DNA of 64,000 nt from an uncultured Mediterraneibacter sp. (GTDB lineage: Bacteria > Bacillota > Clostridia > Lachnospirales > Lachnospiraceae). Shown one piece after another: positions 5,948-47,300 of this stretch. The notes beneath the pieces were generated by a model that was not told the origin of the DNA, did no database searches, and worked only from the letters and a program-made list of their open reading frames with translations. A program made the position numbers and the translations under genes. How positions within the stretch are numbered: the first letter of the stretch is position 1; each line of letters opens with the position of its first letter. The DNA lies in assembly GCF_944377805.1 (NCBI RefSeq), contig NZ_CALWFZ010000009.1, positions 1 through 64,000 of the forward strand. Direction: 5' to 3'.

Positions 5948-7306
5948 ATGACAGAACCGGTATTTGCGGCAGAACCTTCAAGGCTGCTGATCGCGGCGGT
6001 GGCAGGAATCCTGTTATTACTGCTGCTTATCATAAAATTTAAGATACATCCAGTATTATCGCTGCTGATTTCCGCTCTGTTTATTGGGCTGGGGGCCGGG
6101 ATGCCGGTTCCGACCCTGGTTTCCACTGTGGAAAAGGGAGCCGGAGAGACTTTGCAGGGTATTGTATTGCTGATAGGTCTTGGATCTCTGTTCGGAGGAA
6201 TTCTGGAAGTTTCGGGAGGAGCACAATGCGTCGCTCAGACTCTGGTCAACAGGTTTGGAGAAAAAAAGGCAGGGGTTGCCCTGGGAATTACGGGCCTGGT
6301 AGTTGGCACAACCGTATTTTTTGAAGCCGGAGTTGTGATATTGATTCCTCTGGCATTTGGCCTTGCCAAGAGAACAAAGAAATCTACCTTATATTATGTG
6401 ATTCCGCTCTTGGCAGGACTTGCTACAGGTTTCGCGTTTATCCCTCCGTCTGCCGGTTCAGTACTTGTTGCAAACATGCTTAATGTAGATCTGGGAATCA
6501 TGATCGCGGTGGGGGTTCCGGTGGGGATTTTATCACTGATCTTTGCGGGAATACTCTGGTCAAAATTTATCGGAAACCGAATCAATACCGGGCTGCCGTC
6601 TAATATTCAGGAAGTACGGGAAGCGGAAGAAGGGAATCTGCCTGAATTTTCTACGGTTTTGGTTATTATTTTGGTTCCCCTTGTTCTGATTTTATGCAGT
6701 ACTGTCTCGGCATATATTCCAAATATAGAATTTGTGCGCCCAGCGTTAGAATTTCTGGGAACACCGTTTGTCGCTTTGATTATAGCAGTGCTGCTGGCTA
6801 TGTATTTTCTGGGAAAGAGACAGGGCTATAACGGGGAACAGTTAAAGAAAATACTGGATCGTTCGTTACGCCCTACAGGTCAGATCCTTCTGGTGATCAC
6901 CGGGGGAGGGATCATCCGCTGGGTGCTGCAGGACTGTGGAATGGGAGATATCATCGGTCCGGTGTTGGAGAAGAGTGGTCTTCCGTTAGTTCTTGTGGCC
7001 TTCCTCATTGCGGCACTGATTCGCGCGTCCGTAGGGGCGGCGGTAGTGGCAATGACAATGGCGGCGGGAATTATGGCATCCATGCCGGGTGTTGCGGAAT
7101 TATCCCCGGTTTATCTTGCGGCAATGGTCTGCGCGATCAACGGAGGAGCGACTGCTTTTAGCCATGTGAATGATTCCGGTTTCTGGCTGGTTAACTCTCT
7201 TTTGGAGATTGATGAAAAGACCACACTGAAATCATGGACGATCATGGAAACTATCGTAGGTGTTACAGGTTTAGTCTGTGCGATCCTTATCAGTCTGTTT
7301 GCATAG
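5948..7306 (+). CDS. GntP-family gluconate/sugar-acid permease, 452 aa
   Basis: Polytopic membrane protein with about 12 hydrophobic segments. Typical GntP text includes ETLQGIVLLIGLGSLFGGIL, FFEAGVVILIPLAFGLAK and GGATAFSHVNDSGFWL near the C-terminus. The family imports gluconate, related hexonates or other organic acids with protons. It starts directly after the dehydrogenase stop and ends just before the kinase ribosome site, so the three form one transcript. In this operon it is the only transporter and should bring in the substrate that the dehydrogenase and kinase process. Confidence 0.9.
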   Translation: MTEPVFAAEPSRLLIAAVAGILLLLLLIIKFKIHPVLSLLISALFIGLGAGMPVPTLVSTVEKGAGETLQGIVLLIGLGSLFGGILEVSGGAQCVAQTLVNRFGEKKAGVALGITGLVVGTTVFFEAGVVILIPLAFGLAKRTKKSTLYYVIPLLAGLATGFAFIPPSAGSVLVANMLNVDLGIMIAVGVPVGILSLIFAGILWSKFIGNRINTGLPSNIQEVREAEEGNLPEFSTVLVIILVPLVLILCSTVSAYIPNIEFVRPALEFLGTPFVALIIAVLLAMYFLGKRQGYNGEQLKKILDRSLRPTGQILLVITGGGIIRWVLQDCGMGDIIGPVLEKSGLPLVLVAFLIAALIRASVGAAVVAMTMAAGIMASMPGVAELSPVYLAAMVCAINGGATAFSHVNDSGFWLVNSLLEIDEKTTLKSWTIMETIVGVTGLVCAILISLFA

Positions 7307-7319
7307 GAGGACGGGAGAG

Positions 7320-8537
7320 ATGATTGCAAAAGTAATTTTGGGAACGATGCAGAACGCAAGGAAACTGGTAAGCATTGTTGAACACATTCCATATGATGCG
7401 GAACTGTGCAACGGGCGTTATGTAGTGAATGCAAAATCCATGCTCGGCGTATTGAGCATGCCGGAATTTAAAGAAGGAGAACTGCACGTCCATACAGATA
7501 ATGAAGAGGAATGTGAAGAAATTCTGCAAAAGCTGCTGGAACAGGATCTTCTGGCGGATACCAATGATTCTGTGAGCCGTTCAATTTATGATATTACATC
7601 ATTTGGAGAGATGCTGATAGACTTTACCATCCAGGGAAAAAATGAAGACGGGCAGGTGCTGTTTGCCCGAAATCCGGGAGGAGCGCCGGCAAATGTCGCT
7701 GTTGCCGCGAGCAGACTTGGAGCGCATACTGCGTTTCTTGGTAAAGTAGGAAAAGATATGCATGGAGAATTTCTCCGCGCAGTACTGGAGCGGGAACAGG
7801 TGGATACCAGGGGGCTCATCCTGGACGAAAAGTATTTTACAACGCTGGCGTTTGTAGATATAAACGAAGCCGGGGAGCGGACTTTTTCTTTTGCGCGGAA
7901 ACCGGGAGCAGATACTGAGATTCAAAAGGAAGAGCTGGATATAGATATACTGGACCGCACGAATATTTTTCATGCAGGCTCGCCGTCCCTTACCAGCCAG
8001 CCGGCCAGGGATACAACATTTTATGCGGTAAAAAGGGCGAAGAATAAAGGAAGTATTATTTCCTATGATCCTAATTACAGGGCTTCTTTGTGGGAAAGCG
8101 AAAAAACGGCAAAGCGGCATATGAGAAGCCTGCTTCCGTATGTGGATATGATAAAAATCTCTGATGAGGAAACGAAGCTCTTGACAGATTTTCAAGGTGC
8201 GGAGGAAGCTGCCAGGGAATTGTACCGTCAGGGAATAAAAGTTGTCGCGGTTACTCTTGGGAGCGAAGGGGCCTACGTTTACTGCAAAGAAGGAGGCCGC
8301 AAGGTATCCGGCTTTAAAAGTCATGTTGTGGACACAAATGGTGCGGGTGACTCTTTCTGGGGAGGCTTCTTGTACAGGATCAGCAAATCGGCAAAATGTC
8401 TGGATGAACTGGGCCTGAATGAACTGGAAGAAGCCGCAAGGTTCGGAAATGCGGTCGCTGGTCTTTGTGTGGAGAAAAGAGGAGCGATTCCGGCAATGCC
8501 GGACTTACAGCAGGTGGAGGAAAGACTGGTGCAATAA
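7320..8537 (+). CDS. HPr/Crh-like domain fused to PfkB sugar kinase, 405 aa
   Basis: ATG 7320 is chosen because AGGAGG (7305-7310) lies 9 bp upstream. Residues about 1-80 resemble the HPr phosphocarrier fold: MQNARKLV aligns with the HPr active-site loop but Asn12 replaces the phosphorylatable His15, while the regulatory serine region is kept (VNAKSMLGVLSM, Ser40 corresponding to HPr Ser46), followed by GELHVHTDNEEE as in HPr. Residues about 88-405 are a PfkB/ribokinase-family kinase: NPGGAPANVAVAASRLG substrate loop, and DTNGAGDSFWGGF with the catalytic Asp and anion hole. The kinase half is closest in feel to fructokinases or KDG kinases. Cytoplasmic. The HPr part could let HPr kinase/phosphorylase or CcpA sense or control the enzyme; that is inference. 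Confidence 0.85.
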   Translation: MIAKVILGTMQNARKLVSIVEHIPYDAELCNGRYVVNAKSMLGVLSMPEFKEGELHVHTDNEEECEEILQKLLEQDLLADTNDSVSRSIYDITSFGEMLIDFTIQGKNEDGQVLFARNPGGAPANVAVAASRLGAHTAFLGKVGKDMHGEFLRAVLEREQVDTRGLILDEKYFTTLAFVDINEAGERTFSFARKPGADTEIQKEELDIDILDRTNIFHAGSPSLTSQPARDTTFYAVKRAKNKGSIISYDPNYRASLWESEKTAKRHMRSLLPYVDMIKISDEETKLLTDFQGAEEAARELYRQGIKVVAVTLGSEGAYVYCKEGGRKVSGFKSHVVDTNGAGDSFWGGFLYRISKSAKCLDELGLNELEEAARFGNAVAGLCVEKRGAIPAMPDLQQVEERLVQ

Positions 8538-16065: not shown

Positions 16066-18921
16066 ATGAATCAGAAGAAAAAGTTCGTTTTGCACAAGGC
16101 ACTGTCGATACTGCTGGCGCTGGCGCTGTTCGCAAGCCTGATTCAGCAATATCCCGTGTCGGCGCAGGAGGATACAGGGCAGATAACAGAGGAGCAGGAA
16201 GGGCGGCCCGATTCTGAGGAGCAGGAGGACAAGCCTGACTCTGAGGAGCAGGAAAACAGTATTGAAACTGCTCCTCAGAGCACGGTTGAAAAACCACAGG
16301 AAAGGATTTCTTTCCAGGCGGTAAGGAACAGTCTGGAAGGTGTGGAAGTTACGCTGGAGGTTGACGGACAAGACAGAGGAACTGTTAATTACCCTGCCGG
16401 ACTGGTATCAGATCATGTGAGCAGCCTGGCGCCTTACCTGGATGGCAAAGAAGCGTTTCAGAAATCACTTCTGAGAAGAACGGAAGCGGATGGAAGCGTT
16501 ACAGAGACGGAAGTTTTCCGAATCGGCACTTATGAGGGCGCGGTATACTATTCTCTGAGCGAGCAGCAGGATACCGGCATTCTGCTAAATGCCGGCGAAA
16601 GTATCGTCCTTGTGTGCGCCAGTCAGTATGAGGTCACATATAACAGCGGGGAAAACGGTTCGGTTACAGGCCCGGAACTGATCTGGAACGGAAATGGGCT
16701 GGAAGCTGTGGTGACAGCTGATAAATATTATCATATTGAAACTGTCAGCTGGAGTGACGGGAGCGATACATATCCGTTGGAAGTAACCGGGGAACACAGT
16801 ATGCAGGTGTCAGTTCCGGCAGAGAGCATCCATAATGATATTACGGTTACAGCAGTATTTGAAAAGGATGCGCCCTATATGATAACGGCCGGGCAGATAC
16901 AGCAGGGAGGAATATGTCTGAATCAGGGACAGGAAGGAGACGACTATTATGCCAACGGCGAAGATCAGCCGATTCCGGCAGTCACTCCCGGGGAGGATCA
17001 GACTTTTATGGTGTTCTCTCAGTCCTGGACCGGAATAGGCAATTCAGGATACTATCTGAATCTTATGCGTATTAACGGGGAAAACGTCATTGTTCCATTC
17101 AGCTATGAAGTGGGAGCCTCAGCAGAGACTGTATTAAGCAACGGATCAACAGTCACCGTGACATTAGTACAGAAAAATGTGGGCCTGTACTGGAAAGAAG
17201 GAGACCCCTATTATGGGATTCGGGGAACTTTCCTGGGATGGAACAAGCTGCGCTGCCTCTATAGTGTCACTGTCACAGACGTACAGGAAAACATGGCCAT
17301 AGACCTGAACTTTAAAGAGGGCAACAGCCGGGAAATGATCATGACCGGACTGGAAGGCATTAATTCATTCGGAGCATCCTCTGAGACGATCGACTGGGAA
17401 ATACACTGGGATCCGTCCCTGATCGGCAATCATTATTATTATGATGTTCAGGAAAATGACGGGGATACCGTATACCGTGCCTACTATAACAGCGGCGAGA
17501 CGCTGGCAACAGCTTATAATATCTATCTTTATACGGTGAAACCAGGATATAACCCGAACACTGTGAATTTTGAAGTTCTTTATGACGGTGTACGGATGAA
17601 CAGTGAGGACGCGATTATGCCTGCAAGAGACGGCAGCAACGAACCGGCATGGATGCTCACGGTAGATGAGATGGCGGCGGCGCTGGATACGAACTTCAGA
17701 CATTTTGACGCTTTCCTGGAATCCGCAAAAGCAGCCGGATACACGCACTGTTTTGCGCTGAACCAGAACAACGCGTACAATCAGGTGCTGCGTCTGAAGG
17801 CAAATCCTTATGAGTATCACCTTGTTTTTGATCCCGATGGCGGAACCTTTGATGGAACCGGACTGGATTCGGATAAATATACGATTCATCAGGATGGAAC
17901 GGTGACGGAAAGGAATGCCGGCGGGGAGCTGCAGGTCTACACACTGGCAGACGGCAGCGTATCCGTCAACATGCCTCTTGTGGAACCGGAAAAAGAGGGA
18001 TGTGTCTTCAAAGGGTGGAAGTTATACAAAGATAACGGGCCCGTAGATGAGACGCTGTATTCAGTAAATCAGAGTTTTGTAATCGATGAAAATACGATCG
18101 CACATGCCGGAGGTGATGATGAGTCAGATGAGAACCATACCTTTACCTTTGTGGCACAGTGGGAAGATGTAGCCGGAAGCCCGGATACAGCGGCGTATTT
18201 TATCGGTTACTATGTACAGGATCCGAACGGGACGGTAGAAGCCGGCGGGAAAACATATACCCAGTACTATTCTACTACGGAGTACGGAACAGTAGGATCT
18301 TCCATTGTGGCGTTAAATGACAGACATCCCGGACAGGCATACACACTGAACGAGCGGCTGTCACATGTGAAGATTGACAGGCTGCTGGATGAGAGTGCGG
18401 AAGGATATGCGGATAACAACAGGATCCTATTTTATTATGATCAGGCAGTCTATGACCTTACGATAGAAAAAGACGCGCGGGGAGACAGTGACCTCACAAA
18501 AGAATGGACAGTAGAGGTGACACTGAAAGATGCCGGCGGAAAGACGCTTACAGGTGGAATTGCATATGGAGAAGTTACTTTCACCAACGGAACAGGAAGC
18601 TTTACGTTAAAAGACGGTGAAAGCATCACAATGACTGACATACCTTCAGGATATCAGTACTCCGTATCAGAGAAAGAAGTGCCGGATGACTATAAAAAGG
18701 TGCAGTATCAGATCAATAACGGCGAAGCGTCAACAAATGCTCCGGCCGATGTCGTGCTCACAGCAGACACCACAGTGACGGTTATAAATGACCGTGATCT
18801 GAAGCCGTCAGACACAGGGATTGATCTTGGGAATATCGGGGCGTTTGCAGGAGCAGGAGCCGCGGGGGTTGCGCTTCTGGCCCTGAGCGGATTATATCTG
18901 AGGAAAAGATATGTCCGATAA
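16066..18921 (+). CDS. Pilus-locus surface adhesin with C-terminal wall-sorting signal, 951 aa
   Basis: Signal peptide at residues 1-33 (KKKFVLHKALSILLALALFA), then an acidic linker with tandem PDSEEQE units (about 47-63). The large central part has no family I can name. An InlB-like beta-repeat region (about 585-700, FDPDGGTFDGTG, EGCVFKGWKLYKD, TFVAQWED) follows. A last prealbumin-fold domain (about 800-905, LTIEKDARG, YSVSEKEV, VINDRD) has the Lys/Glu/Asn set expected for an internal isopeptide bond. The end is PSDTG (914-918), a hydrophobic helix and RKRYVR, i.e. a non-canonical sorting signal. First gene of the pilus operon, in the place of Cpa in streptococcal FCT-3. No thioester-domain motif was seen. 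Exported, probably wall- or pilus-attached tip adhesin. Confidence 0.8.
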   Translation: MNQKKKFVLHKALSILLALALFASLIQQYPVSAQEDTGQITEEQEGRPDSEEQEDKPDSEEQENSIETAPQSTVEKPQERISFQAVRNSLEGVEVTLEVDGQDRGTVNYPAGLVSDHVSSLAPYLDGKEAFQKSLLRRTEADGSVTETEVFRIGTYEGAVYYSLSEQQDTGILLNAGESIVLVCASQYEVTYNSGENGSVTGPELIWNGNGLEAVVTADKYYHIETVSWSDGSDTYPLEVTGEHSMQVSVPAESIHNDITVTAVFEKDAPYMITAGQIQQGGICLNQGQEGDDYYANGEDQPIPAVTPGEDQTFMVFSQSWTGIGNSGYYLNLMRINGENVIVPFSYEVGASAETVLSNGSTVTVTLVQKNVGLYWKEGDPYYGIRGTFLGWNKLRCLYSVTVTDVQENMAIDLNFKEGNSREMIMTGLEGINSFGASSETIDWEIHWDPSLIGNHYYYDVQENDGDTVYRAYYNSGETLATAYNIYLYTVKPGYNPNTVNFEVLYDGVRMNSEDAIMPARDGSNEPAWMLTVDEMAAALDTNFRHFDAFLESAKAAGYTHCFALNQNNAYNQVLRLKANPYEYHLVFDPDGGTFDGTGLDSDKYTIHQDGTVTERNAGGELQVYTLADGSVSVNMPLVEPEKEGCVFKGWKLYKDNGPVDETLYSVNQSFVIDENTIAHAGGDDESDENHTFTFVAQWEDVAGSPDTAAYFIGYYVQDPNGTVEAGGKTYTQYYSTTEYGTVGSSIVALNDRHPGQAYTLNERLSHVKIDRLLDESAEGYADNNRILFYYDQAVYDLTIEKDARGDSDLTKEWTVEVTLKDAGGKTLTGGIAYGEVTFTNGTGSFTLKDGESITMTDIPSGYQYSVSEKEVPDDYKKVQYQINNGEASTNAPADVVLTADTTVTVINDRDLKPSDTGIDLGNIGAFAGAGAAGVALLALSGLYLRKRYVR

Positions 18922-19429
18922 GACGGGGGGCAGCAGACCTTCGCTTCTGCAGGATATTCTGTTCCTGCTTTTAAAGACAGGCATTATCTGCCTCATACTG
19001 ATTGTTCTGTTTACCTTTATATACGGGATATTCCGATGTGAAGAGAACGGCATGTTTCCGTCTGTGAAAGATGGTGATCTGATTGTGTACTACCGTCTGG
19101 ATAAGGAGTACAAAGTTTCGGATGTCGCGATAGTGGAGTACAAAGGGGAGCTCTCTCCCCGGCGTGTGGCGGCAACACAGGGAGATACGGTAGATATTAC
19201 AGAAGAAGGACTGACGATAAACGGAGCGCTCCAGCAGGAAAGCGAAATATATGAAGAGGCGCTTCTTTACGAAGACGGAATTGACTTTCCGGTGACATTG
19301 CAAGAAGGGGAAGTTTTTCTGCTGGGTGACGCCCGGGAACATGCGGAAGACAGCCGGTTGTACGGCCCTGTCAGGGCAGAAGAGACATACGGAAAGGCGA
19401 TGCTCGTCATCCGGCGCAGAGGGATATAA
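18911..19429 (+). CDS. Signal-peptidase-I-like protein lacking catalytic residues (SipA/LepA-like pilus factor), 172 aa
   Basis: One N-terminal membrane segment (about residues 20-40) and an S26 signal-peptidase fold: ENGMFPSVKDGDLIVYYR corresponds to the SM-x-P box, SPRRVAATQGDTVDI to the K-R box, and GDAREHAEDSRLYGPV to the final GDN-x-x-SxDSR box. The catalytic Ser is replaced by Gly47 and the catalytic Lys by Arg84, so peptidase activity is not expected. SipA of the streptococcal FCT-3 pilus locus, in the same position, also lacks the Ser-Lys pair and acts as an assembly factor. The gene overlaps the adhesin stop by 11 bp and precedes the pilin. Confidence 0.85.
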   Translation: MSDKTGGSRPSLLQDILFLLLKTGIICLILIVLFTFIYGIFRCEENGMFPSVKDGDLIVYYRLDKEYKVSDVAIVEYKGELSPRRVAATQGDTVDITEEGLTINGALQQESEIYEEALLYEDGIDFPVTLQEGEVFLLGDAREHAEDSRLYGPVRAEETYGKAMLVIRRRGI

Positions 19430-19489
19430 ATTCTGAGGAATCAGAGTTTACCCGGAGTTATTTTTCAAGGATTTTAAGGAGGAAGAAAC

Positions 19490-20632
19490 ATGAAATTGAG
19501 AAGCAGACTGATTGGTATTCTTTTGGCGGGAACGATGGTCATGGGAATGGGAGTGACTGTAGCGGCATCTCCGTCAGAGGGCACAGAGAAAGATCCGGCA
19601 GGAGTGGAAATTGTAAAAGATCTTGAACTGGCATATGGAGTCACAACTCCAAATGAGACTTTTACATTTGATTTCGCGAAAGTGACATCCGACGCGCCGG
19701 ATATTCAGGACGCTAAAATCGCTTACACCGATAAAGACACAGACGAAGACGCACAGCCGGGAGAACTGGCGACGATCCGGAAATCTACGGCGAATATTCT
19801 GGAAGGGGTACAGTTTCCACATGCGGGAGTCTTTACATACACTGTCACTGAGAATGGAACGGATGCTGAAGGATATGGAATGAATTATTCAGAAGCGAAG
19901 TATACCATGAATGTATATGTCAAGAATGGAACGGGCGGGAAACTGTTTGTGTCCGCAGTGGAAATATTGAAAGACACTAATGACGATGGAACTTCCGCAG
20001 ACGGCTCTAAAACAGATGATCCGACTCTGGGTCAGGGAGAGGGAGCGGGCATGCTCTTCACCAATGAATATACCCAAAAGGGCGGAAGCGGTGAAGGAGG
20101 AGATGCTGACGCGCTTTCGATCAGCAAGACTGTAAGCGGCGAATATGGCGATCAGACAAAGGATTTTACATTTTCTGTAACATTATACAAATCTCCGACG
20201 GTACATGATGACAAAGAAGTGACATACCAGGGCAGGATCGGCTCTGAGGCTCCGATTGATTTTACTACGAACTCACCAGTAACAGTTCAGCTCCATCACG
20301 GAGAGAGCCTTTTGTTTGATGACCTTCCGGCTGGTACGACATATACAGTAACTGAGCAGGGAACAGAGGGATACAGACCATATGCGGTCGTCACAGTGGA
20401 TGGAACTGCGGAATCTGAAATAAATGCCGCAGAAGGACAGAATCTTTCAACAGGAACCAAAGTGGTAGGTACAGACACGAACAGCGCGGCGTTCAGAAAC
20501 GTGTATGATGAAGGCGGAAGTATCACACCGACCGGCATCATTATCGATAACCTTCCGTTCATCCTCCTTGTTGTTGTGGCAGCGTCAGGTCTTTCCTTCT
20601 ATGTAGTCAGCAGAAGAAGATTCAGCCGCTAA
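19490..20632 (+). CDS. Major pilin with two FctA/isopeptide domains, 380 aa
   Basis: Signal peptide at residues 1-26. Domain 1 (about 38-195) is a Spy0128/FctA pilin domain with candidate isopeptide triad Lys43 (EIVKDL), Glu121 (YTVTEN) and Asn192 (FTNEY). Domain 2 (about 207-340) repeats the pattern with Lys213 (ISKTV), Glu289 (YTVTEQ) and Asn337 (FRNVYD). The C-terminus has TPTGI (346-350), a hydrophobic helix and SRRRFSR. TPTG resembles the QVPTG motif of GAS T3 pilin, which a class B pilus sortase uses. AAGGAGG precedes ATG 19490. It should be the shaft subunit, covalently polymerised by the sortase encoded next. Confidence 0.87.
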   Translation: MKLRSRLIGILLAGTMVMGMGVTVAASPSEGTEKDPAGVEIVKDLELAYGVTTPNETFTFDFAKVTSDAPDIQDAKIAYTDKDTDEDAQPGELATIRKSTANILEGVQFPHAGVFTYTVTENGTDAEGYGMNYSEAKYTMNVYVKNGTGGKLFVSAVEILKDTNDDGTSADGSKTDDPTLGQGEGAGMLFTNEYTQKGGSGEGGDADALSISKTVSGEYGDQTKDFTFSVTLYKSPTVHDDKEVTYQGRIGSEAPIDFTTNSPVTVQLHHGESLLFDDLPAGTTYTVTEQGTEGYRPYAVVTVDGTAESEINAAEGQNLSTGTKVVGTDTNSAAFRNVYDEGGSITPTGIIIDNLPFILLVVVAASGLSFYVVSRRRFSR

Positions 20633-20645
20633 GAAGCCGATACAG

Positions 20646-21560
20646 ATGAATTCTGTCAGAAAGGGCCCGTCCGGCAGACGGACGGGCCGCATGATTCTCA
20701 GAGCGATCAACAGTGCGGCGGATACTGTAATGCTGCTCATTTTTCTCCTGCTGCTTGCGTTTGGGATATATGCTGTGTGGGATGCCCGCATTGTGCAGCA
20801 GGAAGCGGCGGGAGAACAATTCAGGCAGTACAGGCCCGCAGCTGAGGACGCCGGAACTTTTGAGGAGTTCCGGCAGATCAATCCGGAGGTATTCGGATGG
20901 CTGACTGTATATGGAACGAACATTGATTACCCTCTTGTGCAGGCGGAAGATAACGAGAAATATCTGAATACTTCTGCGGACGGAGAATACTCTTTATCCG
21001 GAAGTCTTTTCCTTGATTTTCGTAATCGGAATGATCTGTCGGATTTTAACAGTATTATTTACGGGCATCATATGGCGGGAAATGTCATGTTTGGAGATAT
21101 TGGGTCGTTTAAAGACCGGGAATATTTTGAAAGCCGCATGTATGGAGAACTGTACTGCGACGGGCAGTATTACGGCCTGGAGTTTTTTGCGTTTCTCGAA
21201 GTGGACGCCTATAATGACGCGGTCTACCATCCGGCAGTAACCGGGGAGGCACAGCAGAGGGACTATCTGAATATGCTCAGAGAACAGGCGCTTTACTATC
21301 GCGAGATCGGAGTGGATTATGAGGATCGGGTCGTTCTGCTGAGTACATGTACATCCGATATAACCAATGGAAGGCACATTCTGGCAGGACGCCTGACCGA
21401 TACGGTGAAAGAAGACCCGTTCCAGGAGGAGGCAGCCCGCGGGGAGGGTCTTCTGGCAGAAATATCACTGACATCGCTGCTGCCGGTTATCTGCGCGGTA
21501 GGCGTAACAGTGTTTCTGGCGCTGGTGATCATATTTCTGAACAGGAGAAGGGGTAAATAG
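20646..21560 (+). CDS. Class B pilus sortase (SrtC2-like), 304 aa
   Basis: N-terminal membrane anchor (about residues 24-45), extracytoplasmic class B sortase domain and a second hydrophobic segment near the C-terminus (about 275-297). Catalytic set: His141 (IIYGHHM), Cys235 (LLSTC) and Arg243 (NGRHILAGR). The substrate-neighbouring text NPEVFGWLTVYGTNIDYPLVQ is typical of class B. The gene follows the pilin by 13 bp. In streptococcal FCT-3, the pilus is built by a class B sortase in this same position. It would join pilin TPTG termini to lysines of the next subunit. Confidence 0.9.
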   Translation: MNSVRKGPSGRRTGRMILRAINSAADTVMLLIFLLLLAFGIYAVWDARIVQQEAAGEQFRQYRPAAEDAGTFEEFRQINPEVFGWLTVYGTNIDYPLVQAEDNEKYLNTSADGEYSLSGSLFLDFRNRNDLSDFNSIIYGHHMAGNVMFGDIGSFKDREYFESRMYGELYCDGQYYGLEFFAFLEVDAYNDAVYHPAVTGEAQQRDYLNMLREQALYYREIGVDYEDRVVLLSTCTSDITNGRHILAGRLTDTVKEDPFQEEAARGEGLLAEISLTSLLPVICAVGVTVFLALVIIFLNRRRGK

Positions 21561-21575
21561 GAGGATTTGGTATTT

Positions 21576-22232
21576 ATGAAACAGAACTTGGGAAAGAGAA
21601 TAGCGGGGATTATGATGTCCGCGGCCGTGCTGTTTGCTGCCGCAGTACCCGTACAGGCGGCAGGAAATTCTGCCGTCACAGTACAGATACCTGTCACACA
21701 GGAGTTTACAGTATCCGGAACTGAGGAGACAGATGGAGAATTTTCCTATCTGCTTACCGGGATAGGCGGCGATGCTCCTATGCCGGCGGGAAGCGTTGAA
21801 AATGTCTGGCGGTTCTCTGTCGCAGACAGCGGCAATGTCAGGATTCCGATTGAGTTTACTCATGCCGGGGTCTTCACATACGAGCTCCGGCTGGATGGGA
21901 ACAAGGCGAAAAACGGATACACATATGACGGGCGGATTTATACATTATCCATATATGTATCAAACGTGGAAAGCGGACTGGCGGCAGACCTGATTGTACA
22001 GAACGAAAACGGGGACAAAGCTTCGGAAATTGTATTCAAAAACAGCTATACTGCTCAGGATGCCGGCGGACAGATTACATCCGGCAAAGGAAATCCGCAG
22101 CACGGATCAGGCGGGAACGTAAAGACAGGGGATACCCGGAACATGATCCCGGTATTCAGTACAGCTCTTGTGCTCTCGGCATGGATCATAGCGGCAGTAC
22201 TGAAAAAACGAGCCGAATACGAGTGTGAGTGA
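21576..22232 (+). CDS. Minor (basal) pilin with one FctA-like domain, 218 aa
   Basis: ATG 21576 is preferred over the in-frame TTG at 21567 because AGGAGG (21559-21564) gives workable spacing only to the ATG. Signal peptide about residues 1-29, one FctA/Spy0128-like domain (about 32-160, HAGVFTYELRLDGNK, IYTLSIYVSN, VFKNSYT) and a VKTGD sorting signal (182-186) with hydrophobic helix. The Lys and Glu expected for an isopeptide bond are not seen at the usual strands, though the Asn segment (FKNSY) is. It ends the operon at the place of FctB, the streptococcal wall-anchoring basal pilin. Confidence 0.8.
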   Translation: MKQNLGKRIAGIMMSAAVLFAAAVPVQAAGNSAVTVQIPVTQEFTVSGTEETDGEFSYLLTGIGGDAPMPAGSVENVWRFSVADSGNVRIPIEFTHAGVFTYELRLDGNKAKNGYTYDGRIYTLSIYVSNVESGLAADLIVQNENGDKASEIVFKNSYTAQDAGGQITSGKGNPQHGSGGNVKTGDTRNMIPVFSTALVLSAWIIAAVLKKRAEYECE

Positions 22233-22333: not shown

Positions 22334-23068
22334 TTAAACCAGCTCTGCATTTTTGTGTATTGTCTCCCGGATTATGTTTTCCACATAATCTCCGATATGT
22401 TTCTTCGTGTCCTTATCCAGTTCATCCGGATAGATCGGATTCCCGTATTCAATGACGACATGCGTCCGTTTTATTTTAGGGAAATGATTCTCAAAAATCT
22501 CTGCGGTATTGTTCATGGATACCGGAACGATGGCGCATCCGGTCTTGGTGGCGATTTTCAAAGCGCCGTCGCGAAACGGCAGCATGCTCAGTTCCTCGCC
22601 GGGATTACGGGTTCCCTCCGGAAATACACAGATCGAGATGCCGTTTTTGATATTGTCAATCGCCTGGAGAATTGTCTTGAGACCTTCCTTTGGGTTTTTG
22701 CGATCCAGGAACAGGCAGTGTACCCGTTTCATCCAGGAGGTCAGTGTGAGATAGCGCTCCATCTCCTTTTTTGCAATATAGCCAGTCAGTCGTCGGCACC
22801 TGCTGTAAGTCAGCAGGATGTCAAAATAGCTTCTGTGATTGCCGATAAAGAGCACCGGCTCATCAGGTATGTTCTCTTCCCCGATCACAGTTGTCTTTGT
22901 GCCGGCTATTTTCAGGATCACTTTAAATCCCCACTGTACAATACGCAGAGAACTGATGTCACATGCATAAGGATTGAACTTTTGCAGGATCCATTCCACA
23001 ACCAGAACCGGGATGGTCAGGATCAGGAACAGGATCAGAAAGATTACAATACATATAAATCTAATCAT
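22334..23068 (-). CDS. plsC: 1-acyl-sn-glycerol-3-phosphate acyltransferase, 244 aa
   Basis: Phosphatidic acid synthesis at the membrane. The N-terminal hydrophobic helix (residues 3-27) is followed by the acyltransferase motifs NHRSYFD (HX4D catalytic pair) and FPEGTRNPGEEL. Size fits PlsC. Transcribed alone on the minus strand. Its upstream region (23069-23334) carries one copy of the structured repeat found twice more in this window. Confidence 0.92.
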   Translation of the reverse strand: MIRFICIVIFLILFLILTIPVLVVEWILQKFNPYACDISSLRIVQWGFKVILKIAGTKTTVIGEENIPDEPVLFIGNHRSYFDILLTYSRCRRLTGYIAKKEMERYLTLTSWMKRVHCLFLDRKNPKEGLKTILQAIDNIKNGISICVFPEGTRNPGEELSMLPFRDGALKIATKTGCAIVPVSMNNTAEIFENHFPKIKRTHVVIEYGNPIYPDELDKDTKKHIGDYVENIIRETIHKNAELV

Positions 23069-23099: not shown

Positions 23100-23192
23100 A
23101 ATCACCGGAAGTGCCAAATGGCATATTCCGGGGGTGTAAGCGGTTGCCAAGGTCTCGGACAGGTCCGGATTTTGGCTCGTCGCTATCACAAA
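23100..23192 (-). repeat. Structured interspersed repeat, copy 1
   Basis: Read on the minus strand this matches copies 2 and 3 nearly throughout, from a T-run/GTGA start through GAGCCAAAATCCGGACC to GGCACTTCCGGTGATT. It folds as hairpin 1 (GCCAA/TTGGC outer stem, CGGA-cctg-TCCG inner stem) and hairpin 2 (CCGG..TGCC-attt-GGCA..CCGG). The T-run is preceded, on the same strand, by a short AGCGT/ACGCT stem. It sits upstream of plsC and of the divergent PrcB-like gene; apart from it the 23069-23334 gap shows nothing I can name. Confidence 0.8.
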
Positions 23193-23334
23193 AAATCAGC
23201 GTCGTTTACACCACGCTATTAGTAATTATACAGCGGAGATATGGAAAAAACAAGCAGAAACAAAGCGGCAATCCGCTCATATCTTTTCCGGGCCAGACAT
23301 ATGATTATAAGGAAAAATACTGTGGAGACAGAAA

Positions 23335-39883: not shown

Positions 39884-39925
39884 CATAGGAATCTATAAAA
39901 GAACATGAGAAGGAAGGAAATTCAA

Positions 39926-42040
39926 ATGAGCACAGAACTGATCAATGTAGCCGAGATCTTTGGTGAAAACGTCTTCAATGACACTGTAATGCAGGAGCGT
40001 CTGCCGAAAAAGGTATACAAGAACCTGAAGAAGACGATCGAGGAAGGCAAAGAACTGGATCTTGAGACGGCGGACGTCATTGCCCATGAGATGAAAGAAT
40101 GGGCGATTGAGAAAGGCGCGACACACTATACTCACTGGTTTCTGCCACTGACAGGTGTGACGGCGGAGAAACACGACTCTTTTATTTCTGCGCCCCAGCC
40201 AAGCGGAAAGGTGCTGATGAGCTTTTCCGGTAAAGAGCTGATTAAGGGAGAGCCGGACGCATCCTCGTTCCCGTCAGGCGGATTAAGGGCCACATTCGAG
40301 GCAAGAGGCTACACGGCATGGGATTGTACATCACCGGCGTTCGTAAGACAGGATGCGGCGGGAGCCACCCTGTGTATTCCGACAGCGTTCTGCTCCTATA
40401 CAGGAGAGGCGCTGGATCAGAAGACCCCGCTTCTTCGTTCTATGGAAGCGATCAATAAACAGGCGCTGCGCCTCTTAAGGCTGTTTGGCAATACGACATC
40501 AAAGAAAGTGACTCCGTCCGTGGGACCGGAGCAGGAATACTTCCTTGTAGACGCGGAGAAGTTTGAGCAGAGAAAAGATTTGATCTATGCGGGCCGCACA
40601 CTGTTCGGCGCCATGCCGCCTAAGGGACAGGAACTTGACGATCACTATTTCGGTACGATCCGTCAGAGAATTGCAGCATTTATGAAAGACGTCAATGAAG
40701 AGCTGTGGAAGGTCGGAGTCACGGCGAAGACACAGCATAACGAGGTCGCTCCCGCGCAGCACGAGCTGGCTCCGATCTACGCGGAGGCAAACATCGCGGT
40801 AGACCATAACCAGATTGTAATGCAGACACTAAAGAGGGTTGCGTGCCAGCATGGACTTAAATGCCTGCTTCACGAGAAACCGTTCGCGGGAGTGAATGGC
40901 TCCGGTAAGCATAACAACTGGTCCATCACGACAGACGATGGAATCAACATGCTTGATCCCGGCAGAACACCTCATGAAAATACACAGTTCCTTCTCGTTC
41001 TGACCTGTATTTTAAAGGCAGTTAACATGCATGCGGATCTCTTAAGAGAATCTGCGGCAGATCCGGGAAATGATCACAGACTCGGAGCAAACGAAGCTCC
41101 GCCGGCGATCATCTCTGTCTTCCTCGGTGAGCAGCTTGAGGATGTTCTGGAGCAGCTGATCAGCACAGGCGAGGCTACGCACAGCCTGAAAGGCGGCAAA
41201 CTGGAGACAGGAGTCCGCACTCTTCCGGAACTGTCAAAAGACGCGACAGACAGAAACCGTACCTCACCATTTGCGTTTACCGGAAATAAATTTGAATTCC
41301 GTATGGTAGGATCCCGAGACTCAGTGGCATCTCCGAACATTGTCCTGAACACGATTGTGGCGGAGGCGTTTGCGGATGCGTGCGACGTACTGGAGAAGGC
41401 GGATGACTTTGATCTCGCGGTACATGATCTGATCAAAAAATATGCGACAGAAAACCAGAAAATCGTATTTAACGGTGACGGCTACTCGGAGGCATGGGTA
41501 AAAGAGGCGGAGAGAAGAGGACTTCCGAACATCCGCTCTATGGTAGAGGCAATCCCTGCGATGATTACAGACACAGCGGTCAACCTGTTTGAACGGTTTG
41601 GCGTGTTCACGAAAGCGGAGCTTGAGTCACGCGCTGAGATCCAGTACGAGACTTACGCGAAAGCCATCAATATTGAGGCCCGTACTATGATCGATATGGC
41701 CAGCAAGCAGTTCATGCCGGCGTTCATCAAATACACAAAGACGCTTGCGGATACAGTAAACGCAGTGACGGCGGCGGGAGCGGACGCATCCGTTCAGAAA
41801 GAGTCGCTTGATAAAGTAACGGCTCTCATGGGAGAGACAAAGAAAGCGCTTGACACCCTTATCAGAGTGACAGATGAGGCGGCCGGAAAAGAGGAGGGAG
41901 CGGTACAGGCGAACTTCTATCATTCGGATGTATTCCCGGCAATGGAAGCCCTGCGCGCTCCGGTTGATAAACTGGAGATGATCGTGGACAAAGAGGCATG
42001 GCCGATGCCCTCCTACGGTGATCTGATTTTTGAGGTCTGA
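39926..42040 (+). CDS. glnN: Type III glutamine synthetase (GlnN), 704 aa
   Basis: Large GSIII form found in Bacteroides and Clostridia. Seen: [18 protein letters not shown] near residue 70, [20 protein letters not shown] in outline, [10 protein letters not shown] (metal-binding glutamates), [25 protein letters not shown] and [17 protein letters not shown]. Makes glutamine from glutamate, ammonia and ATP. ATG 39926 follows GAAGGA and matches the family N-terminus; an earlier in-frame ATG at 39905 has no site. Followed by its own terminator and a copy of the structured repeat. Confidence 0.95.
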
Positions 42041-42089: not shown

Positions 42090-42138
42090 CCCGGCGGGGG
42101 AAGACACACCTCTCTCTCTTTCCCTGCCGGGATTTTTT
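42090..42138 (+). terminator. Terminator after glnN
   Basis: CCCGGCGGGG (42090-42099) pairs with CCCTGCCGGG (42122-42131), followed by ATTTTTTG. The T-run runs directly into repeat copy 2. Confidence 0.8.
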
Positions 42139-42228
42139 GTGACGGCAACGAGCCAAAGTCCGGGAGTGCCCGAGACCTTGGCGGCCACTTACACCCCCGG
42201 GATGTGCCTTCTGGCACTTCCGGGGATT
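42134..42228 (+). repeat. Structured interspersed repeat, copy 2
   Basis: Best-paired copy. Hairpin 1 (42152-42182): outer GCCAA/TTGGC, inner CGGG-agtg-CCCG. A CTTACAC linker, then hairpin 2 (42195-42225): CCCCGG, GTGCC-ttct-GGCAC, CCGGGG. The element begins in the T-run of the glnN terminator and ends in GGGGATT. The same plan is seen at 23100-23192 and 47206-47300. Confidence 0.85.
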
Positions 42229-45430: not shown

Positions 45431-46330
45431 GTGAACAAGAAAAGAAAGATGACGCTGCTTCAAAAGCAGTCGGCAGCAGGCTGGGTTTTCCTTCTTCCTG
45501 CAACCATACTGATCGCGGTTATGGCATTTTGGCCTATCATCCAGGCTTTTATTATGTCACTGCAGACTGGTTCCAGCGCTAATATGGCATGGTCTGAACC
45601 GCTTTTTAACAACTATACGAGAATGTTCCAGGATAAGCTGTTTCTTCGCTCAGTAGGAAACACATTCCTTTATCTTATAATTCAGGTGCCAATCATGCTG
45701 ATTCTTGCGATTCTGCTGGCACAGCTTCTGAATAACAGAGATCTGAAACTGAAAGGATTCTTCCGTACATGCGTATTTCTTCCGTGTGCGACATCTCTGG
45801 TTTCCTATTCACTGATCTTCAAATCTCTGTTTGCGACAGAGGGGCTGATCAACTCGATCCTGGTGGGCCTGGGAATCTTTCAGGAAAATTACAATTTCCT
45901 GGGAAATGCTGCCAGCGCTAAAGCTGTTATTATCATTGCCCTGATCTGGAGATGGACAGGTTATAACATGGTATTCTATCTGGCAGGGCTGCAGAACATT
46001 GAATATTCTGTATATGAGGCGGCAAAAATAGACGGAGCGAACGGATGGAAGACATTCTGGGGCATTACAGTACCGCTGCTCAAACCGACGATCATCATGA
46101 CTTTCATCATGTCAATCAACGGTACGCTGCAGTTGTACGATGAGTCAGTAAACCTGACCAATGGTGGTCCCGCAAACGCTACGATTACCATGTCCCATTA
46201 CATTTACAACAGTTCATTTGGACAGGGTGTTGCGAACTTCGGATACGCAACGGCGATGTCATTCTTTATATTTGTAATTGTGGCAGTATTGGCGATAATC
46301 AATATGAAAGTAGGTGATACACGTGACTGA
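45431..46330 (+). CDS. Sugar ABC transporter permease (MalF/UgpA type), 299 aa
   Basis: Six membrane segments and the inner-membrane EAA loop (YEAAKIDGANGWKTFWGITVPLLKP) that docks the ATPase. GTG start at 45431, with AAGGAGGGG 7-10 bp upstream; the N-terminus (KKRKMTLLQKQSAAGWVFLLPA) is typical. It overlaps the second permease gene. No ATPase gene lies in the operon. Confidence 0.9.
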   Translation: MNKKRKMTLLQKQSAAGWVFLLPATILIAVMAFWPIIQAFIMSLQTGSSANMAWSEPLFNNYTRMFQDKLFLRSVGNTFLYLIIQVPIMLILAILLAQLLNNRDLKLKGFFRTCVFLPCATSLVSYSLIFKSLFATEGLINSILVGLGIFQENYNFLGNAASAKAVIIIALIWRWTGYNMVFYLAGLQNIEYSVYEAAKIDGANGWKTFWGITVPLLKPTIIMTFIMSINGTLQLYDESVNLTNGGPANATITMSHYIYNSSFGQGVANFGYATAMSFFIFVIVAVLAIINMKVGDTRD

Positions 46331-47153
46331 GAAAAAGAACAGAAGTGCAATCCAGCGTCGGTTAATTCCGACATATATTTTCCTGATTATCGTATCCTTT
46401 ATATCGGTGTTCCCGTTTTACTGGATGATCTCAGCGGCAACAAACACATCCTTCGATGTGGCGAACGGAAAAATTATTCCGGGTACGCATGCACTGGAGA
46501 ATTTCCAGAACCTGGTGCAGAACACAGAACTTTGGGGAGCAATGGGGAATTCATTCCTTTACGCTCTGGTACAGACGCTTCTGGCGCTCCTTATCTGTTC
46601 TCTTGCCGGATTCGGATTCGAGCTGTATCATGACAAGAAAAAGGATCTGGTATTTACCATCCTTCTTCTTGCGATGATGATTCCGCAGGTTGCAACGATA
46701 ATTCCGCTGTTCAGAATGCTTTCGACATTAAACCTGTTGAACTCTGTGTGGGGCTTTATCCTGCCATCCTTGTCCACGCCGTTCCTGATCATGATGTTCC
46801 GGCAAAATTCAAGGAACTTCCCGATCGATGTAATGGAGGCGGCGCGTATTGATGGTCTGAATGAGTTCCAGATTTTCTACCGCATGTATTTGCCGATGAT
46901 GAAAGCTACATATGCAGCAGCGGCGGTTATCACATTTATGAACGCGTGGAATGCGTACCTGTGGCCCAGAGTTATCATGACTCAGCCAGACGCGCAGACG
47001 ATGCCGCTGTTGATCGCAAACCTGTCATCCGGGTATGCGACTGATTACGGACTGTTGATGATGGGCGTCCTCTTCTGTTCAGTGCCTACGATGATTGTAT
47101 TCTTCGTATTACAGAAACAATTCGCAGAAGGTATCACAGGAGCCGTCAAATAA
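46314..47153 (+). CDS. Sugar ABC transporter permease (MalG/UgpE type), 279 aa
   Basis: Six membrane segments with the EAA loop MEAARIDGLNEFQIFYRMYLPMMK and typical N-terminal FISVFPFYWMISAATNT. Start is GTG 46314 or GTG 46323, neither with a clear ribosome site; both overlap the end of the upstream permease, so coupled translation is likely. Pairs with the preceding permease to form the import channel. Ends the importer operon. Confidence 0.9.
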   Translation: MIHVTEKKNRSAIQRRLIPTYIFLIIVSFISVFPFYWMISAATNTSFDVANGKIIPGTHALENFQNLVQNTELWGAMGNSFLYALVQTLLALLICSLAGFGFELYHDKKKDLVFTILLLAMMIPQVATIIPLFRMLSTLNLLNSVWGFILPSLSTPFLIMMFRQNSRNFPIDVMEAARIDGLNEFQIFYRMYLPMMKATYAAAAVITFMNAWNAYLWPRVIMTQPDAQTMPLLIANLSSGYATDYGLLMMGVLFCSVPTMIVFFVLQKQFAEGITGAVK

Positions 47154-47177: not shown

Positions 47178-47212
47178 AAAAGAGCTGCCGCTGATGCGGC
47201 GGCTCTTTTTGC
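47178..47212 (+). terminator. Terminator after the importer operon
   Basis: AAAGAGCTGCCGC (47179-47191), loop TGAT, GCGGCGGCTCTTTTT (47196-47210). Fully paired with one wobble. Repeat copy 3 begins in its T-run. Confidence 0.88.
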
Positions 47213-47300
47213 GGTGGTGATGGGCCAAAGTCCGGGACTATCCGAGACCCTGGCGATCGCTTACAATCCCGGTATGTGCCTTTTGGCACTTCCGGCGATT
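47206..47300 (+). repeat. Structured interspersed repeat, copy 3
   Basis: Hairpin 1: outer GCCA/TGGC, inner CGGG-acta-TCCG with a terminal G-T pair. Hairpin 2: CCGG, GTGCC-tttt-GGCAC, CCGG. The linker CTTACAATCCCGG matches the other copies. It fills nearly all the space between the importer terminator and the end of the convergent AraC gene. Confidence 0.85.

Follow-up and report, generated by a model that had tools for sequence, protein, structure and literature searches.

A 90-nt repeat of Mediterraneibacter is a probable non-autonomous mobile element targeting intrinsic transcription terminators

A 90-nt repeat that occurs three times in the 64,000-nt stretch of DNA analysed here (positions 1 to 64,000 of contig NZ_CALWFZ010000009.1 from an uncultured Mediterraneibacter sp., hereafter the window) is probably a non-autonomous mobile element that targets intrinsic transcription terminators. 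From sequence comparison, the terminator target is well supported and the mobility of the element is strongly suggested. The original prediction had described three copies of a structured repeat, and all three were located (23100-23194 on the minus strand, 42134-42228 and 47206-47300 on the plus strand). These stretches, as first delimited, include five T of a T-tract, and the element proper begins with the G that follows (Table 1). The two hairpins joined by a CTTACA linker are present in each copy as described, and only 1, 0 and 5 of 200 shuffled sequences fold as well as copies 1, 2 and 3, respectively (z = -3.9, -3.9 and -2.5). The terminator-like hairpins upstream of the copies had gone unmentioned in that prediction.

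Table 1. Copies of the element in the window, their parts and their neighbours
Feature	Position	Strand	Remark
Copy 1 of the element (90 nt, G...GATT)	23100..23189	-	
Weak hairpin and six T, directly 5' of copy 1	23190..23217	-	MFE -9.6
Acyltransferase gene	22334-23068	-	hairpin and T upstream of copy 1 lie in the divergent region ahead of the gene
Copy 2 of the element (90 nt)	42139..42228	+	
Type III glutamine synthetase gene	39905-42040		upstream of copy 2
Intrinsic terminator of the type III glutamine synthetase gene, hairpin and six T	42090..42138	+	MFE -24.5
Hairpin 1 of copy 2	42152..42182	+	
CTTACA linker of copy 2	42188..42193	+	
Hairpin 2 of copy 2	42194..42228	+	hairpin end is the element end
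Copy 3 of the element (90 nt)	47211..47300	+	
Intrinsic terminator of the ABC transporter permease gene, hairpin and T-tract directly 5' of copy 3	47181..47210	+	MFE -16.1
ABC transporter permease gene	46314-47153		upstream of copy 3

Three copies in 24 kb, as the repeat was first counted, understates the family considerably. Thirty copies were fetched as loci from the genome that holds the window (the home genome; 2.28 Mb, 45 contigs, 92.6% complete), and 27 of them went into a covariance model; L018, L026 and L030, being incomplete, were excluded. The proposed search with such a model did recover further copies. The home genome gave 55 matches at E<=0.1, of which 50 reach E<=0.001, whereas BLAST of copy 2 gave 40 matches at E<=1. 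Across the genus, 40 of 58 genomes, the home genome included, carry between 1 and 50 matches each, and the element was not found in the other 18 under the stricter filters of that search. In another genome set, 17 of 41 genomes (again including the home genome) carry the element, all carriers fall in one genus, and none of the 16 genomes of other families has it. Since stricter filters lose weak matches, low counts in both surveys may be underestimates. Named carriers among the matches listed are Mediterraneibacter species, Mordavella massiliensis, R. torques, R. turbiniformis and Faecalimonas umbilicata, together with one metagenome-assembled genome labelled Anaerobutyricum; R. torques ATCC 27756 alone holds 44 matches.

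The original prediction had not recognised the repeat as a named family, and no Rfam family fits it. No Rfam family reached its gathering cut-off at the element, the window scan gave only a tRNA elsewhere, and copy 2 with its flanks returned, up to E 10, two chance-level matches, neither of them to group II. Literature judged by title and the start of the abstract offered neither a small terminator-targeting repeat nor this family, which does not prove its absence in print. Viral contigs contained no exact match to the element pattern, and the element was not found in plasmids. Among phage records, five fecal clones match the pattern; one of them, L353, appears by eye to be a piece of chromosome on which a T-box-like leader precedes a tyrS-like gene. 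In the phage-record clone L354 (1330-1560), a diverged copy lies directly behind the end of a tRNA-like gene and has no clear terminator before it.

The position of the copies points to the terminator as target. In nearly all 30 copies fetched from the home genome, a different hairpin followed by a T-run lies just upstream in the same orientation, and the G of the element comes next. A profile of the 5' half gave 211 matches at E<=1 in 285 loci, of which 160 were kept as unique, 5'-anchored and with enough flanking sequence, and the other 51 were dropped. Among these 160 copies, the upstream 40 nt fold with an MFE <=-8 in 154, at least four of the six bases before the element are T in 156, and both signals are present in 150. 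Upstream of the element, 96% of stretches reach this folding threshold; downstream only 14% do, and when the upstream stretches are shuffled, 37% do. The ten copies without the full signature include some with a hairpin and a broken T-tract and some with a T-tract and no clear hairpin, as well as the copy in L122 and the older truncated copy in L213, both described below.

As a control, 714 T-tract ends were listed in 460 kb of the home genome (the window and stretches of contigs C1, C5 and C8), all of them outside genes as crudely called. Among the 170 ends with a hairpin (MFE <=-8), 21 have the element behind them, and among the 544 lacking one, none does (Fisher 3e-14), the 21 rows corresponding to 19 elements and a further 5 of the 24 elements in the 460 kb going uncounted for want of a strict T-tract. 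Stricter cut-offs gave 20 of 126 versus 1 of 588 (-10) and 19 of 91 versus 2 of 623 (-12). The 5' edge is fixed, with G following the T-tract in 92% of copies. This G stands at 17 of 21 occupied sites and at 27 of 106 unoccupied terminators (MFE <=-10), indicating that it is either part of the element or preferred. When the sequences behind 1882 terminator-like sites were clustered, two families recurred at unrelated terminators among the 25 largest clusters, namely this element (149 sequences, plus 10 short variants) and introns bearing a reverse transcriptase (RT; 4 sequences). Inspection of those clusters by eye, with up to six members each, gave no second terminator-inserted repeat except the introns. 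The orientation of 18 of 24 home-genome copies agrees with the majority coding strand, which does not point to a strict lagging-strand rule.

What is targeted is the terminator and not the gene end. An Rfam scan of 20 loci of the home genome and 18 others placed a T-box leader directly upstream of the element in L022, L112, L141 and L149, a SAM riboswitch directly upstream in L096, whose element is a short variant, and 6S RNA directly upstream in L010; a further SAM-type leader with an element was recognised by eye before a metK-like gene. In the T-box and SAM leaders, the element sits between the attenuator and the controlled gene, where copies could alter the leader transcripts.

Consistent with mobility, related terminators occur without the element. 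In 9 of 29 other glutamine synthetase loci (L218, L219, L220, L221, L224, L225, L226, L228 and L230), a terminator that by eye matches that of the home genome has no element behind it; in L231 the terminator is unrelated and the copy that follows it is truncated, and the remaining loci continue with other sequence. At the rpsR terminator, the element is found in the query genome and in two of 30 fetched genomes (G020, and the home genome with a deleted copy), and no element lies within ~240 nt in the other 28, though not all of these have a terminator that is recognisably orthologous. Congener terminators without the element occur at two further loci as well. The sequences have diverged too far to be reconstructed base by base. 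A stretch of ~74 bp with the 3' end of rpsR and its terminator appears twice in R. torques ATCC 27756, ~1.5 kb apart on the same strand (contig C10 of G072, 6746-6819 and 8293-8441; L323 and L286), and this repetition may mark a candidate element integrated at that terminator.

In 144 full copies, the GATT end is sharp and is followed by no strong base preference. Agreement between the flanks is at best 3.5% versus 0.4% by chance for 5 nt and 10.4% versus 4.5% for 4 nt, only slightly above chance, so there is no consistent target duplication. The ends, GTGAC and GTGATT, are by eye not inverted repeats. No larger version with the same ends far apart was found in the 285 loci, a small sample, and the three wide end-pairs listed there join separate full copies. 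Together, the copy number, patchy presence within the genus, element-free sites and sharp ends support the earlier suggestion of a small mobile or REP-like element. Two loci are nested cases. At L213 (4733-5033, reverse-strand count), a complete copy separates the T-tract from an older, truncated one. In the first 76 bases of the reverse strand of L122, a group II intron-like 3' end abuts the element near its usual 5' edge, and to judge from the sequence the same terminator seems to have served two unrelated elements.

The case for selection on structure, made originally from an A-U, G-C or G-U pair that changes among the three copies, proved weaker. The pair exists, but it is the most variable of the hairpin 1 inner stem and is broken in 6 of the 23 home-genome copies that have letters on both sides. 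Since a loose alignment yielded almost no consensus structure in RNAalifold, pairs of a hand-named structure were counted. In 27 home-genome copies, 88.5% of cells are paired versus 88.3% in shuffles, and double changes affect 8 pairs versus 5.3, a value reached by 57 of 500 shuffles. Across species, 17 pairs have double changes versus 6.9 in shuffles, with 0 of 500 as high, although the alignment behind this count (95 distinct rows, of which some are truncated) had been fitted to the structure, and shuffles can be exceeded through relatedness alone. In that qualified form, covariation exceeds shuffles across species and is absent within the home genome. A third stem closing hairpin 1 (P1) is poorly supported, with 77.6% of cells paired across species. 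In paired columns, home-genome copies depart from the consensus by 10.9%, and in unpaired columns by 13.6%. Together, the results within the home genome and across species suit a picture in which active source copies are constrained and inserted copies decay almost neutrally. Immediately behind the first G, the next four bases vary largely by lineage. The element starts with GTATA in 15 of the 28 rows from M. glycyrrhizinilyticus, with GTACT in 5 of the 9 from Mordavella, with GCAAC in 5 of the 7 from excrementigallinarum and with GTGAC in 10 of the 27 home-genome copies. The rest of the element differs by a mean of 2.3 to 9.2 bases between species, and distances within species are low; the 9 Mordavella copies, for instance, average 2.7 differences. 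Deletions and truncations are common, and several short copies without hairpin 1 look, from their sequence, like deletions between two GGCGAC repeats.

The original prediction had also entertained a 3' stability element or an RNA regulator, and both became less likely with the similar divergence of paired and unpaired columns and with the presence of the element behind 5'-leader attenuators. A regulatory or stabilising RNA that selection keeps in place, such as a second block to read-through downstream of the terminator, would account for the constant place and orientation and for the compensatory hairpin changes across species, and read-through transcription is plausible there. Such a role is nevertheless very improbable given that the home genome shows no excess of covariation, that deletions are frequent, that no element stands behind rpsR in most of the fetched congeners, and that copies also lie between attenuators and their genes. 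Group IIC introns are described in PMC4424553 as inserting at intrinsic terminators. The element likewise inserts directly after intrinsic terminators, and the RT-bearing introns of the genus, with class C inferred from the insertion site, begin right after the same kind of T-tract (L251, L252, L274). A passenger RNA of group IIC machinery, copied by the intron RT into the terminator site, would share this target, and the intron-like 3' end in L122 adds to that idea, which we still regard as quite unlikely. The genus introns are ~1.9 kb and encode a reverse transcriptase, whereas the element has 90 nt without coding capacity, and copy 2 with its flanks gave no match to a group II ribozyme core or domain V in Rfam up to E 10. 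Nor was a reverse transcriptase, whether its own or supplied in trans, found in every carrier. RVT_1 matches occur in 28 of the 58 genus genomes, and at least six carriers have none (G012, G045, G022, G041, G060 and G002, among others), four of which (G041, G022, G002 and G060) are at least 98% complete; introns are often lost from metagenome assemblies, so their absence there is weak evidence. Conversely, G001 has two RT-bearing introns and no element was found in it. G075 has one retron-like reverse transcriptase and G074, by eye, a short group II-like fragment.

Movement by a Y1 (HUH) transposase, as an IS200/IS605- or REP-type non-autonomous element served for example by the RAYT-like protein that many species of the genus carry, we also consider unlikely, if somewhat less so than the passenger RNA. 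Like IS200/IS605 derivatives, the element has hairpins towards both ends, a fixed left flank and no consistent target duplication, with an arbitrary right flank, and Y1_Tnp matches are present in 49 of the 58 genus genomes, many in frames of about 260-310 aa. However, seven carriers, the home genome included, have no such match (G000, G016, G048, G056, G060, G063 and G075), no parent element sharing the ends was found, and no element was found around RAYT-like genes in five genomes (L324-L328). The target is also a hairpin with a T-tract, and T-tracts without a hairpin go unused in the 460-kb control, whereas IS200/IS605 targets are short sequences. The REP GTAG and CGTC repeats are described in PMC3733652 as single palindromes of 20-40 nt. 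REPs and REPINs resemble the element as short, structured, extragenic repeats of many copies thought to be mobilised in trans, and the CGTC repeats, like the element, have no known transposase; the element differs in its 90 nt, two hairpins and terminator target. By eye, its conserved CGACGAG places a reverse-strand CGTC one base from the foot of hairpin 1 and not at the element end, and it has no GTAG foot. MITEs and the pneumococcal BOX, RUP and SPRITE repeats are also small, interspersed and non-coding. MITEs have terminal inverted repeats and usually target duplications, and in lacking both terminal inverted repeats and a consistent duplication the element differs from a MITE of a DDE transposon. 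SPRITE is described in PMC10969869 as terminator-like. By the tests made, the element is like group IIC introns in target choice and like IS200/IS605 derivatives in layout, and a member of neither.

The RVT_1 and Y1_Tnp surveys of the 58 genus genomes tied no enzyme to the element, and the carrier G060 (98% complete, 11 element matches) gave a match to neither domain. At E<=5, the covariance model gave no match in 23 loci around RT or Y1 genes, within a test set of 25 loci in which two G059 copies, included on purpose, were found. Ten Y1 loci contained no significant element match (best nhmmer E 0.33; none at E 5 with the model). Beside one RT-bearing intron, a partial match of 20 nt to the element's 3' half (L248, 662-681, minus strand; E 0.0017) had no support from the covariance model at E 5. 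The RAYT-like protein of L324 (1605-2414) has 269 aa and matches the REP-associated transposase model at 68 bits, below the cut-off of 80, next to a gene that is presumably glycyl-tRNA synthetase-like. In M. glycyrrhizinilyticus, L355 (1333-2532) encodes a retron St85-like reverse transcriptase (219 bits, cut-off 235) in the same open frame as a ferredoxin-like stretch (20 bits, cut-off 65).

For a mobile element of terminators, the mechanism we favour is that an enzyme supplied in trans would read the hairpin and T-tract of the target, with the two internal hairpins perhaps marking the element for it. Each lineage would amplify its own version of the element, and copies would then decay where they landed. 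Given mobility, our leading guess, held at slightly under an even chance, is that a hairpin-recognising enzyme inserts the element into the single-stranded DNA of the terminator; a path via RNA and reverse transcription ranks next, at roughly one chance in three. More speculatively, and with a probability a little lower again, the element could be a minimal bacterial counterpart of a SINE, a protein-less 90-nt unit homing to the hairpin-plus-U-tract 3' ends of transcripts generally, by a route distinct from those of group II introns and Y1 transposases. A landing preference behind terminators is otherwise known from one class of self-splicing introns, and, if the mobile reading is true, terminator homing is not confined to group II introns. 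The intrinsic terminator is a structural target present many times per genome, and insertion just behind it probably does little harm. Because it looks like a conserved RNA and behaves like a mobile repeat, the family confounds searches for structured RNAs. Cultured carriers, such as R. torques ATCC 27756 and M. glycyrrhizinilyticus, offer a way to find the enzyme. Elsewhere in the window, positions 16066-22232 hold what by eye, from translated open reading frames, is a sortase-assembled pilus-like locus with a signal peptidase, a sortase and pilin-like proteins.
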